A stretch of 38,532 nucleotides of DNA from assembly GCA_949747905.1 (NCBI GenBank), contig CATKEF010000033.1:1-38532 (forward strand), given 5' to 3'. This stretch comes from an uncultured Eubacteriales bacterium. GTDB taxonomy: Bacteria > Bacillota > Clostridia > Christensenellales > Borkfalkiaceae. The translations under genes and the position numbers were made by a program. The notes under the pieces were generated by a model. That model worked only from the letters and a program-made list of their open reading frames with translations, made no database searches and had not been told where the DNA came from. This document shows positions 5,850 to 36,060 of this stretch, piece after piece (position 1 is the first letter of the stretch; each line of letters begins with the position of its first letter).

Positions 5850-6121
5850 ACTGTGCTAAGTGGGGAGTTAGCGGTGCCCTGTACCTGCAATCCGCTATAG
5901 CAGGACCGAATGTCTTTCCCGACGTAACAAATGGAAGGCCGCGCTTTATAAGGAATGTTGATAGCAAGGTCTTATGCAACCGACAACTGCGAACCGTGTC
6001 AGGATAGGGATATAGCAGCACTAAACAGTATCGTCGGTGTGCCATAGGGGAGCTTTGGAGGAGTTACCTGTAAGGCTAACGTTTCGGTTTGTTCCGGCAA
6101 AAAAGACTGCACAGCTTTTTT
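5850..6121 (+). ncRNA. ffs: Signal recognition particle RNA, large bacterial type
   Basis: RNA of about 272 nt, close to the roughly 270-nt scRNA of Bacillus. The 5' Alu-like domain (GGGGAGTTAGCGGTGCCCTG then AATCCGCTATAGCAGG) is characteristic of clostridial large SRP RNA. Helix 1 closes the molecule: CTGTGC (5851-5856) pairs with GCACAG (6109-6114), followed by T6. The S-domain symmetric loop is intact, with TCAGG (5999-6003) facing AGCAGCA (6014-6020). The apical hairpin is unusual: an AUA/UAU stem caps a GGGA tetraloop (6007-6010), where the usual sequence is UCC-GGAA-GGA. It scaffolds Ffh for co-translational membrane targeting. Confidence 0.92.
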
Positions 6122-30229: not shown

Positions 30230-30306
30230 TGAGGCGTAGCGCAGTTTGGTAGCGCGTCTGGTTAGGGACCAGAAGGTCGTGGGTTCAAGTCCCGTCGCCT
30301 CAACCA
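30230..30306 (+). tRNA. tRNA-Pro, anticodon AGG
   Basis: A complete cloverleaf of 77 nt including encoded CCA. Acceptor TGAGGCG pairs with CGCCTCA (7 bp, U1-A72), D-stem GCGC/GCGC, anticodon stem TCTGG/CCAGA around loop TTAGGGA, variable AGGTC, T-arm GTGGG-TTCAAGT-CCCGT. Loop positions 34-36 are AGG, and G37 and A73 fit tRNA-Pro. Two features are unusual for bacteria: A34 in a proline tRNA (most use UGG, GGG or CGG) and U1-A72 where bacterial tRNA-Pro normally has C1-G72. Confidence 0.93.
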
Positions 30307-30354: not shown

Positions 30355-30545
30355 AGATTCTTCGCTATCGCTCTGAAAGACAATGGTTTCTTCGCTATTG
30401 CTCAGGGCAATAAGAAGAGCGGAGCTCAGAATGACAGAATTCACCACATTGACATAAATCACCGCAATGACAGAATACGCCACAATGACAGAAACGCTCA
30501 GAACGACGGCAATCTCCCGTCATCCCGAGGCGTAGCCGAGGGACC
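30355..30545. repeat. Dispersed repeats and an 18-bp degenerate tandem array
   Basis: Gene-free stretch. GATTCTTCGCTATCGCTCTG and a second TTCTTCGCTATTGCTCAGG are copies of the dispersed repeat. From 30429 to 30518 there are five adjacent 18-bp units: GAATGACAGAATTCACCA, CATTGACATAAATCACCG, CAATGACAGAATACGCCA, CAATGACAGAAACGCTCA and GAACGACGGCAATCTCCC. The array is imperfect but in exact 18-bp register and derives from the GGAATGACA end of the repeat. CGTCATCCCGAGG at about 30520-30531 is an inverted copy. Confidence 0.75.
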
Positions 30546-30569
30546 TTGCCCCCGCTCCGACAAAATCAA

Positions 30570-30675
30570 TTAACTTACCATGCAAAATTATGGAAAATAA
30601 AGCTCCGCTTTATGGCGGAGTGAGCAGGGCAACCTGTGGCGGTTAGCACTTCCTACTAAAGAGGAGGTGATTTTT
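30570..30675 (+). promoter_or_regulatory. Putative promoter and SD-sequestering leader of the small ORF
   Basis: A modest promoter (TTAACT 30570-30575, 17 nt, GAAAAT 30593-30598) would start RNA near 30605. The leader has a 5' hairpin CTCCGC/GCGGAG (about 30603-30620). CACTTCCT (30647-30654) then pairs over 8 bp, with one wobble, with AGGAGGTG (30662-30669), which is the whole Shine-Dalgarno. Initiation should therefore be inhibited until the hairpin opens. Confidence 0.6.
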
Positions 30676-30780
30676 ATGGGAATTGATTACATACTGCTTT
30701 TACTTAAATTAGTAGAGCAGGGAGTAGTTTCTTCGATTACGGTTTCTCAAAATATGGTTACTGTACGCATAAAAAAATAA
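30676..30780 (+). CDS. 34-residue ORF, candidate type I toxin
   Basis: Short ORF beginning MGIDYILLLLKLVEQG and ending VTVRIKK. It has a hydrophobic, partly amphipathic N-terminal helix (about 4-19), a beta-prone polar middle and a basic tail. The Shine-Dalgarno GAGGAGGTGA, 5 nt before ATG, is one of the strongest in the window yet is buried in a hairpin. The 3' UTR is opposed by a predicted antisense RNA with its own consensus promoter and terminator, and the mRNA ends at a strong terminator at 30886-30922. This is the layout of type I toxin-antitoxin pairs such as txpA/ratA and bsrG/SR4. The peptide matches no toxin family I recognise and lacks a clear full transmembrane helix; a regulated small protein is the alternative. 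Confidence 0.6.
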   Translation: MGIDYILLLLKLVEQGVVSSITVSQNMVTVRIKK

Positions 30781-30870
30781 TCGCCCGTGAGTTCGAAGCC
30801 CGGACGATTATTAATTATCTTAACTTCGGCTAACCGTCGCTGTAACCTAAACCGGTTGTTGCCTCTGTTC
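30771..30870 (-). ncRNA. Predicted antisense RNA (candidate antitoxin)
   Basis: An RNA of about 100 nt predicted between a consensus promoter (30877-30905) and a rho-independent terminator. The terminator reads on minus as AATCGTCCG (30809-30801), a 13-nt loop and CGGGCGATT (30787-30779), then A and seven T (30777-30771). It is fully complementary to the 3' UTR and the last codons of the small ORF. An internal AACCG/CGGTT hairpin (about 30831-30856) could expose a loop for kissing. Confidence 0.65.
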
Positions 30871-30876
30871 ACTTTT

Positions 30877-30905
30877 ATTATATGCAAAACCTTGACTGTT
30901 GTCAA
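30877..30905 (-). promoter_or_regulatory. Consensus promoter of the antisense RNA
   Basis: Minus-strand TTGACA (30900-30905), 17-nt spacer, TATAAT (30877-30882): perfect consensus, stronger than the small ORF's own promoter. Its -35 box lies inside the terminator hairpin of the sense mRNA. Confidence 0.8.
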
Positions 30906-30922
30906 GGTTTTTTTATTTTTTT
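30886..30922 (+). terminator. Terminator of the small-ORF mRNA
   Basis: AAAACCTTGAC (30886-30896), loop TGTT, GTCAAGGTTTT (30901-30911), then further T residues. A strong rho-independent terminator giving a sense RNA of roughly 310 nt. Confidence 0.88.
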
Positions 30923-30926
30923 GGAC

Positions 30927-30955
30927 ATTTTACAGAAACTTTGCAAAATTGTCAA
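30927..30955 (-). promoter_or_regulatory. Second upstream minus-strand promoter
   Basis: TTGACA (30950-30955), 17 nt, TAAAAT (30927-30932). It lies 50 bp behind the antisense promoter, shares the CCTTGACA start and looks like a partial duplication. RNA from here would pass the CCTTGAC/GTCAAGG hairpin before reaching the antisense region. Confidence 0.6.
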
Positions 30956-30990
30956 GGTATCGATTGATTAATTTTGGAAGATAAGAGAAT

Positions 30991-31704
30991 TTAAATACCG
31001 AGGAGATTTTTTATGTGCCAGGATAAAATATTTTCGTTTTCACTTTCAGTTAAAAAACTAATATAATAGTCAAAACTATTAAAAGTAAATATTGCATTAT
31101 ACACAAAAATATTTTTATTTACGGTTAAAGAGTAATTAATCGATAAATCTTCAATCTGCAACGACGAATCCAAATCGTTATATTTTTCAAATGCATTGAA
31201 TTTTGCATTCTTCATTATCTGAATTGATAAAGTGACATTATCAAAGCCTTCTTCGGTAATGACAATGGCGTCCTGCGATAAATACCCGATTTCGTTTGTT
31301 TCAGCGATGTAAGCACATCTCGAAACAGCTTTCTGAGAATAATATTTGACGTCGAAATTATTTTCAAGAACGAATTCTTCGAAATTTTCTACTTCCTCTA
31401 TTCTCAAAGATTCGTCTCCGAAATAAACGGTATTATCACGGCTGAGCACGCAAACAGAAACTATTACAGCCGCCACAAGCGCAAAGCTCATAGCAACGGC
31501 TGCAACTATTCCCAGCGCCCTATCGCTCACCACCGCCACGCTTCCGGACTGCGATACAAACTTATCTCCGAATACCGACTTTCGCCTTACGCTTGCGTTC
31601 CGCTTTGCAAGGTGATTTTCAATAGCCCTTTTCGCAAGGTCGGGGTTTATTTCGTATTCGTCCGTAATTTCGGTAAGTTTTTTCCACTTATCATCCCTAT
31701 TCAT
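30991..31704 (-). CDS. Single-pass membrane protein, anti-sigma candidate
   Basis: Protein of 237 residues with a cytoplasmic N-terminus of about 63 residues (helical, with PDLAKRAIENHLAKRNA), one membrane helix (about 64-87) and an extracytoplasmic domain of about 150 residues. The topology and its place as the last gene after a sigma factor fit a membrane anti-sigma factor whose outer domain senses a signal, though no zinc-binding HxxxCxxC motif is present. AGGAG lies 9 nt before ATG. The gap to the C39-like gene is 16 nt. The outer domain is unknown to me. Confidence 0.65.
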   Translation of the reverse strand: MNRDDKWKKLTEITDEYEINPDLAKRAIENHLAKRNASVRRKSVFGDKFVSQSGSVAVVSDRALGIVAAVAMSFALVAAVIVSVCVLSRDNTVYFGDESLRIEEVENFEEFVLENNFDVKYYSQKAVSRCAYIAETNEIGYLSQDAIVITEEGFDNVTLSIQIMKNAKFNAFEKYNDLDSSLQIEDLSINYSLTVNKNIFVYNAIFTFNSFDYYISFLTESENENILSWHIKNLLGI

Positions 31705-31720
31705 ATAAATTTAACTCCTA

Positions 31721-32602
31721 TCAGTCGATTGTCATTATCCAGGCGTCTTTAATGCTGGAATAATCGTTTAATTTCATATAGCCTATAGCTCCGTCGCCGA
31801 AACTGCTGCAAACCAGTAAAAAGGTTTCGTTAAGAAAATTCACTCCGTTTTTATAATAGGAATACGTTCTGTAACCGTACACCATCATCATATGTGCATT
31901 CGGAGAATCAATTTTTGACACGTGCATTTTTGACAACGAATCACTATATGTAATACTGTAAACATAGTTATACTTTGTCAAAGTTATCATAGCGACTTTA
32001 CCCTGGTCTATTGCCTCTTTGAGTTTTGCAAAGTCTACCGAGGTGCCGCTTTTATAAAAACTTGTTTTCCTGAGATTATGTCCCGTACTTTTAACGTAGG
32101 ATTCGAAACCTTCGTAAAAATTGCTTTCCGAAGTACCGTTACCGTTTTCACCCGTCTTCATAAGGGAATAGAGCGTTCTGAACACTGATTTCGTGGATGC
32201 CTCACCCAAGTCGGGATAATAATGATAGTTACCGCTTGCAAAAGTCATCCCCGGGTCATAGTCGGGAATAATGTCGGTATGCCAACGGTCGTAATAAGCT
32301 AATATGTTGAGGGCGGTTATGGGTGCGCAACCGTTCGGTCTCGCAGGGTCTCCGTTGCCGAAACTGGGAACACTGAGCAAACTTTCGTCCTCGGTTATTT
32401 TAAAATCGTCGTAATAAATGTCGTAGCTTGTCTGAACGTGTTCGGACGAACCACGGAAGTCCGCGTCGTCACAATATCCGATTTCTTCGTCTGCGTAAAC
32501 GTCTGTGACGCCTAATCCGAGATAACCGAAAGCGAACACCGCAGACGTAGAAACACATAAAAGATTAATAAAAATTAGTTTGATTGTTGCATCTATACTC
32601 AT
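31721..32602 (-). CDS. Secreted C39-like cysteine peptidase family protein
   Basis: Secreted protein of 293 residues. I start at ATG 32602 (GGAGGT 8 nt upstream; the frame extends 61 codons further into sigma-gene sequence). A hydrophobic signal segment (about 5-30, possible cleavage after VYADEE or FAFG) precedes a papain-like domain of the Peptidase_C39_2 type: NGCAPITALNILAYYDRW with Cys92 as nucleophile, HMMMVYGYR with His237, and a final CSSFGD strand. The order sigma factor, peptidase-like protein, anti-sigma candidate is striking: it may process or sense a signal for the third protein. A TGTAAC-N17-GTAT ECF-like element lies at 32628-32654. Confidence 0.75.
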   Translation of the reverse strand: MSIDATIKLIFINLLCVSTSAVFAFGYLGLGVTDVYADEEIGYCDDADFRGSSEHVQTSYDIYYDDFKITEDESLLSVPSFGNGDPARPNGCAPITALNILAYYDRWHTDIIPDYDPGMTFASGNYHYYPDLGEASTKSVFRTLYSLMKTGENGNGTSESNFYEGFESYVKSTGHNLRKTSFYKSGTSVDFAKLKEAIDQGKVAMITLTKYNYVYSITYSDSLSKMHVSKIDSPNAHMMMVYGYRTYSYYKNGVNFLNETFLLVCSSFGDGAIGYMKLNDYSSIKDAWIMTID

Positions 32603-32627
32603 AGAAATGCACCTCCGAAATGTAATA

Positions 32628-32654
32628 ATACAAATATAACATCCCGAGGTTACA
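32628..32654 (-). promoter_or_regulatory. ECF-type promoter candidate before the C39-like gene
   Basis: Minus-strand TGTAAC (32649-32654), 17 nt, GTAT (32628-32631). The pattern resembles ECF sigma -35/-10 elements (AAC-containing -35, GTA/GTC-type -10). It could be the target of the sigma factor encoded just upstream. A sigma-A alternative with a 19-nt spacer is poor. Confidence 0.35.
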
Positions 32655-32670
32655 ATTGTACAAGAGAAAT

Positions 32671-33213
32671 TTAAAATTTTCCGTAATCCTGCAATTTGCT
32701 TTCGATGCGTTTTATCCTCGCCGCCATAGTGCTCTTTGGAATTCTGAAAATCTCCGCTACTTCCGCAATAGAACTTCCCCACCAAAATCTGTAATAAATG
32801 ATTTTTTGTTCGGTTTCGTCCAGTTTGGAAAATATCTCTTTCAAAAAGACGTGGTTTTCGATATAAATATCGCTTACAAGCCGAAGAGCTTCGAACTCTT
32901 CATATTCGGGCAAAGGGTCTGTAATACGAATACGCTTTTCACGTTTGACGCGGTTGAGAACTTGATTTTTGAAAGAAATAGTAAGCCAAGCGCTCGCATT
33001 CTTGTTTTCTCTGAACTTTTTGCATTTTACAAGCAAAGTTTCAAGAAAGTCTTGAATCAGGTCTTCGATATCTTCTTTATTTTTGTAATAAACGTTTGCA
33101 ATCGTATACAATATTTTGCCGGTGAGATTATAAACCTCCACCAGAGCATTAATATTGCCGTTCGCCATATCGACAAGCAATTCACCTAATTTTTTATTAA
33201 CCGATTCTTCCAT
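32671..33213 (-). CDS. Sigma-70 family (ECF-like) RNA polymerase sigma factor
   Basis: Alternative sigma factor of 180 residues. Region 2 includes KNKEDIEDLIQDFLETLL and SAWLTISFKNQVLNRVKREKR (about 45-97); region 4 is LDETEQKIIYYRFWWGSSIAEVAEIFRIPKSTMAARIKRI (quoted in part; about 132-172), with the helix-turn-helix at its end. No region 1.1 or 3 is present, as in group IV factors. It starts 12 nt after the Xre gene stop, with only AGAAA as ribosome-binding site. Regulated genes probably include the downstream C39-like/anti-sigma pair. Confidence 0.85.
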   Translation of the reverse strand: MEESVNKKLGELLVDMANGNINALVEVYNLTGKILYTIANVYYKNKEDIEDLIQDFLETLLVKCKKFRENKNASAWLTISFKNQVLNRVKREKRIRITDPLPEYEEFEALRLVSDIYIENHVFLKEIFSKLDETEQKIIYYRFWWGSSIAEVAEIFRIPKSTMAARIKRIESKLQDYGKF

Positions 33214-33225
33214 AGTACTTTTTCT

Positions 33226-33552
33226 TTATAAATTTTCTCTCGTCAAACCACGTATCATATCAATGATAACATCTATTTGATTTTCTGTCAATTGTCCTGC
33301 AAGCTCGGTTAAAAGCATAATTTTGTCGCGCTTGCCGTCAGAAACTTCCGTTTCGAAAAAATATTCTACCGGAACTTCAAGCGCTTTTGCCACCTTTATC
33401 AGCGATTCGACAGTCGGCTCGACATCCTTCTTCGTCCATTTGTAAATCATTCCGGACGAAAGCCCCGCGCGATTTGACAACTCGTTAAGACTCCAGTTTT
33501 TTTGCGCCATCAGTTTATATAGTTTTCCGAAAAACGTTTCATCTCTCCACAT
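33226..33552 (-). CDS. Xre-family HTH regulator preceding the sigma factor
   Basis: Protein of 108 residues. HTH_3 domain at about 6-62 (SLNELSNRAGLSSGMIYKW, then PTVESLIKVAKALEV and VEYFF), followed by a short helical C-terminus (MLLTELAGQLTENQIDVII) likely used for dimerisation. I use ATG 33552 because GGTGG lies 5 nt upstream; ATG 33561 is in frame and also possible. First gene of the Xre/sigma/C39/anti-sigma operon, so it probably controls the whole cassette. Signal unknown. Confidence 0.85.
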   Translation of the reverse strand: MWRDETFFGKLYKLMAQKNWSLNELSNRAGLSSGMIYKWTKKDVEPTVESLIKVAKALEVPVEYFFETEVSDGKRDKIMLLTELAGQLTENQIDVIIDMIRGLTRENL

Positions 33553-33649
33553 GTCATCCACCGAGTTGTTCCGTCAATCATATTTTATTATGATTTTAAG
33601 ACGAACATAAATAATTTTATAACTTATATTATTTGCATAAAAGCAAAAT

Positions 33650-33744: not shown

Positions 33745-36060
<2,316 letters not shown>

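Follow-up and report, generated by a model that had tools for sequence, protein, structure and literature searches.

Is the short open reading frame (ORF) that lies within positions 30570-30955 of this DNA, with a promoter pointing back at it from behind, part of a toxin-antitoxin system, and if so of which kind? In this study, we computed the anatomy of this locus, the coding selection on its ORF, the conservation of its promoters and terminators, the covariation of its RNA and the boundaries of the unit within the whole 38,532-nucleotide stretch analyzed (the window), which comes from a gut-type bacterium, and in related genomes. An earlier note had proposed a candidate new type I locus. We found that the type I reading is supported, but that the locus does not stand alone and forms one branch of a larger set sharing the same RNA frame. 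Our best explanation, with a probability of about three in four, is a type I toxin-antitoxin unit with a small folded peptide and a convergent antisense RNA. Other features of the window include an ordinary large bacterial SRP RNA (5851-6114, +), a weak C39-peptidase-like match below the Pfam cut-off with sigma-70-like and HTH proteins (31721-33561, -), and a long protein of collagen-like Gly-X-Thr repeats (33745-34983, -).

Layout of the locus and selection on its ORF

The unit spans about 340 bp. Its plus strand carries a degenerate candidate sense promoter (TTAACT-17-GAAAAT, 8/12, 30570-30598), a 5' hairpin of the sense leader recognized as a palindrome and in the fold (CTCCGC/GCGGAG, 30603-30620), and the 5' strand of a predicted panhandle (30622-30647), which includes CAGG[GCAA]CCTG and the segment X (GGCGGTTAGC, 30638-30647) and was placed by the fold, the alignment and the covariation of relatives. 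There follows a hairpin (30647-30669, +) in which CACTTCCT (30647-30654) forms 8 pairs with AGGAGGTG (30662-30669), and then the 34-codon ORF with its stop (30676-30780, +), which encodes MGIDYILLLLKLVEQGVVSSITVSQNMVTVRIKK. The very strong Shine-Dalgarno (SD) sequence of this ORF and its complete sequestration in the hairpin, both described in the earlier note, are present in the sequence, and the hairpin also appears in the fold. A second hairpin at the stop codon (30771-30809) forms, as had been noticed, an intrinsic terminator for the minus strand over the last codons of the ORF, and has a weaker U tract on the plus strand. It would end an antisense RNA of about 105 nt (30766-30870, -), the start of which is predicted from its promoter and the U tract of which is supplied by the IKK-stop codons. 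Further downstream lie X', the 3' strand of the panhandle, placed by the fold and by relatives (30829-30873, +, with GCTAACCG at 30829-30836), the antisense promoter (TTGACA-17-TATAAT, 30877-30905, -), to which promoter scoring gave 12/12, and the sense terminator (30886-30922, +), with a stem of 11 pairs (30886-30911) and then a T tract. The overlap of this terminator with the antisense -35 box was likewise as reported before. Just upstream of the antisense promoter there is another strong minus-strand promoter-like site (TTGACA-17-TAAAAT, 11/12, 30927-30955). The 651 bases at 30400-31050 hold five promoter-like and five terminator-like sites (1.4 and 0.6 in shuffles, respectively), and the recurrence of the layout in homologues appears to be stronger evidence than this chance level.

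Analysis of substitutions indicated that the ORF is under protein-level selection. The pN/pS ratio was 0.14 in the ORF frame versus 1.13 and 3.62 in the shifted frames, based on 122 pairs from 41 ORFs of 34 codons with DNA identity of 0.60-0.95, excluding the start codon as well as the final four codons and the stop, which overlap the antisense terminator. Differences by codon position in the same pairs numbered 746, 367 and 1250. The earlier note had named synonymous sites as a place where an untranslated ORF would betray itself, and the pattern points instead to a translated one. No significant match was found for 50 family peptides in Pfam, PHROG, NCBIfam or PDB (best E 0.046), which agrees with the previous impression that the peptide lies outside known toxin families. 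Neither Hol_Tox (PF16935; 0/50 at E up to 0.1) nor Fst was matched by these peptides, and the window element itself had no Rfam or Pfam match. IKK-stop ends 53 of 60 peptides. The window peptide is predicted to fold into a helix (3-14) and a beta-hairpin (18-23 and 28-32) with a mean pLDDT of 88 and a pTM of 0.47, and this helix plus hairpin, instead of the usual single membrane helix, would count against a type I toxin. Its best 18-mer hydropathy is 1.73 (family median 1.56), and the median of 54 other peptides in the same RNA frame is 2.43. The fold gives no function, because its best comparison reached only E 1.5 in PDB and 0.43 in a viral library.

The antisense side, the sense promoter and the panhandle

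Losing the antisense promoter or terminator while keeping the ORF was the behaviour of homologues that, according to the earlier note, would speak against the proposal; neither had been lost. An antisense promoter with at least 10/12 matches was present in 60/60 homologous elements (mean 11.6/12), 67-108 nt 3' of the stop and in 40 of them 84-92 nt; among shuffled stretches, 4.9% attained a score of 10 at some position within 200 nt. Six further loci from the order sample also have this promoter (11-12/12). The antisense terminator at the stop codon was found in 60/60 elements versus 6% of shuffles. These terminator shuffles, as well as those used below for the second sense terminator, the antisense promoter of the frame and the likeness of 3' parts, preserved base composition only; many loci are related, and the counts are thus of non-independent events. 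One locus, L038 (G056), is by eye a fragment with neither the ORF nor the antisense promoter.

The sense promoter, which was absent from the earlier note, has a different history. Across the 60 elements, the antisense promoter is the better of the two in 31 and the worse in 5, with 24 ties, and the sense promoter falls below 9/12 in 5/60, including the window, all five of which retain an antisense promoter of 10-12. Such one-sided loss is the pattern that an addiction module would show, and other causes are possible. The window's site is degenerate by comparison with that of its nearest relative, L104 (TTGACT-17-TAGAAT), and because its sense promoter is weakened (8/12 versus 12/12 for the antisense one) the window copy may be silent, decaying or under-expressed. 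It might even be a decaying relic, its sense promoter lost and its antisense RNA left as a remnant, for which we put the odds at somewhat worse than even. Two loci, L033 and L034, retain the antisense side without an intact ORF (by eye), 18 of 93 loci with the stop-codon-hairpin pattern described below have no ATG ORF of 19-45 codons (automated count, among the matches listed), and a Zot match was not found in the window's genome, all of which favor such decay. However, the ORF, the SD hairpin, the panhandle and the terminators are all intact in the window, and there is another plus-strand promoter candidate at 30449-30476 (10/12). Decay would in any case be a matter of the window copy alone and not of its family, and does not conflict with the type I explanation. 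We also observed AATGACAGAA repeats at 30430, 30466 and 30484 and a GTCATCCCGAGGCGTAGCCGAGGGA-like stretch just upstream of the element (30430-30540), in which this promoter candidate lies.

Folding of the predicted long sense RNA of the window revealed pairing between its 5' leader and its 3' UTR (z = -8.4), a panhandle that had been overlooked. Over 123 loci (the comparison of RNA forms covered 123 of 124 elements), a mean of about 26 leader-3' UTR pairs is expected. In 109 loci, the leader:X' duplex had an energy of -43.6 kcal/mol with its own partner versus -30.4 kcal/mol with swapped partners, taken from loci whose peptides were under 40% identical, and the own X' was within the top 5% in 80/109 and the best in 42/109. 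This set left out loci lacking a sense promoter score of 9.25, among them the window, because its sense promoter is degenerate. Position 4 of the panhandle occurs as A-U, G-C, U-A, G-U and C-G pairs, with 98% pairing in 97 of the 109 loci, a subset required to have a helix of 7 or more pairs and thus biased towards pairing. For the window itself, alignment with L104 gives GCGA to GCAA in the leader and TCGC to TTGC in the 3' part. Leader and 3' UTR of the sense RNA are thus predicted to form a covarying panhandle. Since the antisense RNA is the complement of the panhandle 3' strand, it would look like the mRNA's own leader. Counting contiguous helices was a poor covariation test (at least 10 pairs in 81/109 own versus 50% of swapped combinations), because the core sequence itself is conserved.

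Two observations count against parts of the type I explanation. First, the SD of the window is paired in every folded form of the RNA, and the antisense RNA would therefore not be needed to close it. A toggle, in which X' frees the SD and the antisense RNA closes it, was considered and rejected: over the 123 loci, SD openness averaged 0.165 in the long RNA, compared with 0.077 in the short one and 0.074 when X' was blocked, and 43 loci had an SD more open by over 0.1 in the long than in the X'-blocked form, against 3 loci with the opposite difference. We do not claim it for the window, because SD openness there is about 0 in all forms; in other branches, the folds would also let SD access drop once X' is occupied. 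Second, many sense transcripts may terminate at the stop-codon hairpin and never reach X'. T-rich plus-strand sequence follows this hairpin in most relatives, and weakly so in the window, which points to termination of some of the sense RNAs at this site. A scan of 90 bases detected a second sense terminator in only 23/108 other loci (versus 0.6% of shuffles), and the window also has one. Such a terminator agrees with sense transcription continuing past the stop-codon hairpin, just as the txpA mRNA extends past the hairpin complementary to the RatA terminator in passages of PMC3531473.

The sense mRNA of such a type I unit would encode a small folded peptide, probably growth-inhibiting if over-made, and would be built silent, with its strong SD shut in a local hairpin and its leader paired with its own 3' UTR. 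The convergent antisense RNA, if transcribed from the predicted start site, would begin opposite the mRNA 5' end on the panhandle, end at the stop codon and be the exact complement of the panhandle 3' strand and the stop-codon hairpin. Pairing might then start at the hairpin loops, displace the panhandle and produce a double strand for cleavage by RNase III, in the way reported for txpA/RatA.

Distribution and the RNA frame

DNA searches gave matches in 16/93 genomes of the same genus, the window's own included. A profile of 15 peptides extended this to 21/93 genus genomes (E 0.01) and to 28/398 family genomes (E 0.001) in 4/18 genera, with up to 8 matches per genome, and a profile of 50 peptides (E 0.0001) matched 7/396 genomes of an order sample, including the window's own, and 1/291 of a class sample, which was the window's own. 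Therefore, the peptide family appears narrow, although the RNA frame is wide. In five genomes, the main alignments between paralogues begin roughly 50-140 bp upstream of the ATG and finish 80-165 bp downstream of the stop codon, so that homology ends near the two promoters. One pair can be aligned over its 3' part only, and in a few pairs there are additional short matches elsewhere. The only named phage record with the element is the inovirus PQ006185.1, in which it is unannotated and lies between a CDS and the integrase, and a search of plasmids gave no match. A tRNA-Pro (AGG) gene lies at 30230-30306 in the window, 370 bp before the ORF. By eye, some relatives also seem to be located next to tRNA ends, but no complete tRNA gene was detected by ARAGORN in the loci of 15 relatives. 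A prophage at this tRNA-Pro was rejected, as the window contains no second copy of any 14 bases from the 3' end of the tRNA and its genome has no Zot match.

These distributions bear on two further explanations. The peptide could have a small regulatory or phage function, for example for filamentous prophages, and not be a toxin, with the antisense RNA setting its dose. The inovirus, the Zot matches within 4 kb on the element's contig in G007 and G169 (the latter with an integrase about 5.6 kb from the element) and the predicted helix plus hairpin, which is not a membrane helix, all favor this, but Zot matches occurred in only 5/23 element-bearing genomes searched, the same frame also holds hydrophobic toxin-like peptides and one Hol_Tox peptide, and no ORF lacked the antisense promoter (60/60); we consider it improbable. 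Less credible still is a MITE-like mobile cassette, with inverted repeats used by a transposase and with an ORF and antisense RNA that are incidental. It would explain the several copies per genome with homology confined to about 340 bp, the inverted repeats and the tandem pair in L096 (1532-2008, ORFs 372 bp apart), but not the purifying selection on the ORF, the position of the repeats inside the two promoters, or their covariation while the antisense promoter stays near consensus. The type I toxin-antitoxin unit remains our preferred explanation.

The frame was also sought through the stop-codon-hairpin pattern, which requires the IKK-stop codons and says nothing about promoters. It was found at no fewer than 130 loci (at least), 128 of which had enough downstream sequence for analysis. 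Among the matches listed, 93/128 had an antisense promoter 65-100 nt after the stop versus 2.3% in shuffles, and an X'-like motif was present in 81/93 loci with the promoter versus 7/35 others. Profile set and pattern loci together hold at least 111 distinct peptides in at least 24 clusters at 45% identity, or some twenty, because a few of the 24 are fragments or longer forms of others. Among the matches listed, 725 of 3926 peptide pairs below 0.25 identity had 3' parts whose similarity exceeded that of all 1500 shuffled controls; distant members of one cluster make up some of these pairs. One may speculate that a homologous frame (panhandle mRNA, mirror-image antisense RNA and IKK-stop U tract) accommodates some twenty dissimilar peptides interchangeably across Clostridia and Negativicutes, the window's branch carrying a folded helix-hairpin peptide with a non-membrane target, partly spread by filamentous phages; this broader idea is tentative and we regard it as rather doubtful. 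Carriers of the frame include Propionispora (L202) and Pectinatus brassicae (L120), both Negativicutes, and the cultured Ruminococcus bicirculans 80/3 (L214). No description of such a frame was found in the literature searched, mostly outside subscription papers. Amphipathic-looking peptides such as MNELSEIISRLCELLKQLELLLAQVEYIAIKRIKK also occur in the frame (L115, L130 and L218), and the strand-like peptides of L157 and L195 (MLRITITFGKVRITICIKK), 19 residues long, belong to a related frame; in its fold, the leader and the terminator arm are strongly paired. The motif does not agree with integron attC sites, an idea that was therefore abandoned. If our reading is true, the families described so far would understate both the number and the modularity of type I systems in Clostridia, and searches by RNA frame instead of toxin sequence could uncover new ones. 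One could then study how a family of antisense RNAs survives the replacement of its toxin, and would gain a set of short peptides that possibly do not target membranes.

Comparison with known type I systems

An antisense RNA gene overlapping the toxin mRNA is predicted here, with promoter and terminator in the window and in 60/60 elements, and the small, apparently translated ORF (pN/pS 0.14) has controlled ribosome access through the SD hairpin. The likeness to txpA/ratA and bsrG/SR4 drawn in the earlier note holds for the layout, and L202, which shares the frame, reaches the Rfam BsrG threshold (59 versus 55 bits), the only one of 12 loci scanned to do so. Its near-twin L167 does not; the two peptides differ by one residue (MTTYEALTFA(I/V)AFATLIVLVIKK), and that of L167 is a Pfam Hol_Tox match (23.5 versus 23.3 bits). 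In both loci the antisense promoter is weaker (TTGCAT) and lies at a greater distance (114 and 117 nt), which counts against the type I explanation. BsrG/SR4 of the Bacillus subtilis SPbeta prophage (RF01412) has in common with our locus a small toxin mRNA with SD control and, in the accessible text of PMC8309996 and PMC5848175, a convergent antisense RNA overlapping the mRNA 3' end. A stretch of A residues where the ORF ends, and pairing between the 5' and 3' parts, are also seen in the Rfam alignment of BsrG, both as here. However, the BsrG covariance model gave no match in the window even at E up to 10, short of the gathering score, and its toxin is unrelated by profile to the window family peptides. 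For the RNA, the comparison used the Rfam model and published descriptions.

TxpA/RatA shares an antisense RNA over the 3' half, a terminator complementary to an internal mRNA hairpin and an mRNA terminator further down, as far as the available portion of PMC3531473 describes it, and a very strong SD, according to the portion of PMC8167048 available. The par system (Fst/RNAII) of pAD1 shares convergent genes, a two-way terminator and repeats at both RNA 5' ends, again within what that portion of PMC8167048 covers. The par repeats are direct and those of the window type inverted, so that here the two RNA 5' ends would be alike and not complementary, unlike in par. Our predicted antisense RNA, at about 105 nt, is shorter than RatA, which we take to be about 220 nt. 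We know of no antisense RNA of AapA/IsoA or hok/Sok that is the complement of the panhandle 3' strand, and their peptides are unrelated to the window peptide. Their full-length mRNA is held inert by a long-distance 5'-3' interaction, in the part of PMC6733600 available, and such pairing is also predicted here, with covariation. The locus is not assigned to BsrG, TxpA or par, because it lacks defining features of these families among those tested. Since its frame also occurs in L202 (BsrG) and in the near-twin L167 (Hol_Tox), it is best called, judging from sequence comparison, a system of the type I kind that would work like BsrG/SR4 and TxpA/RatA, with a peptide that falls in none of the families searched.
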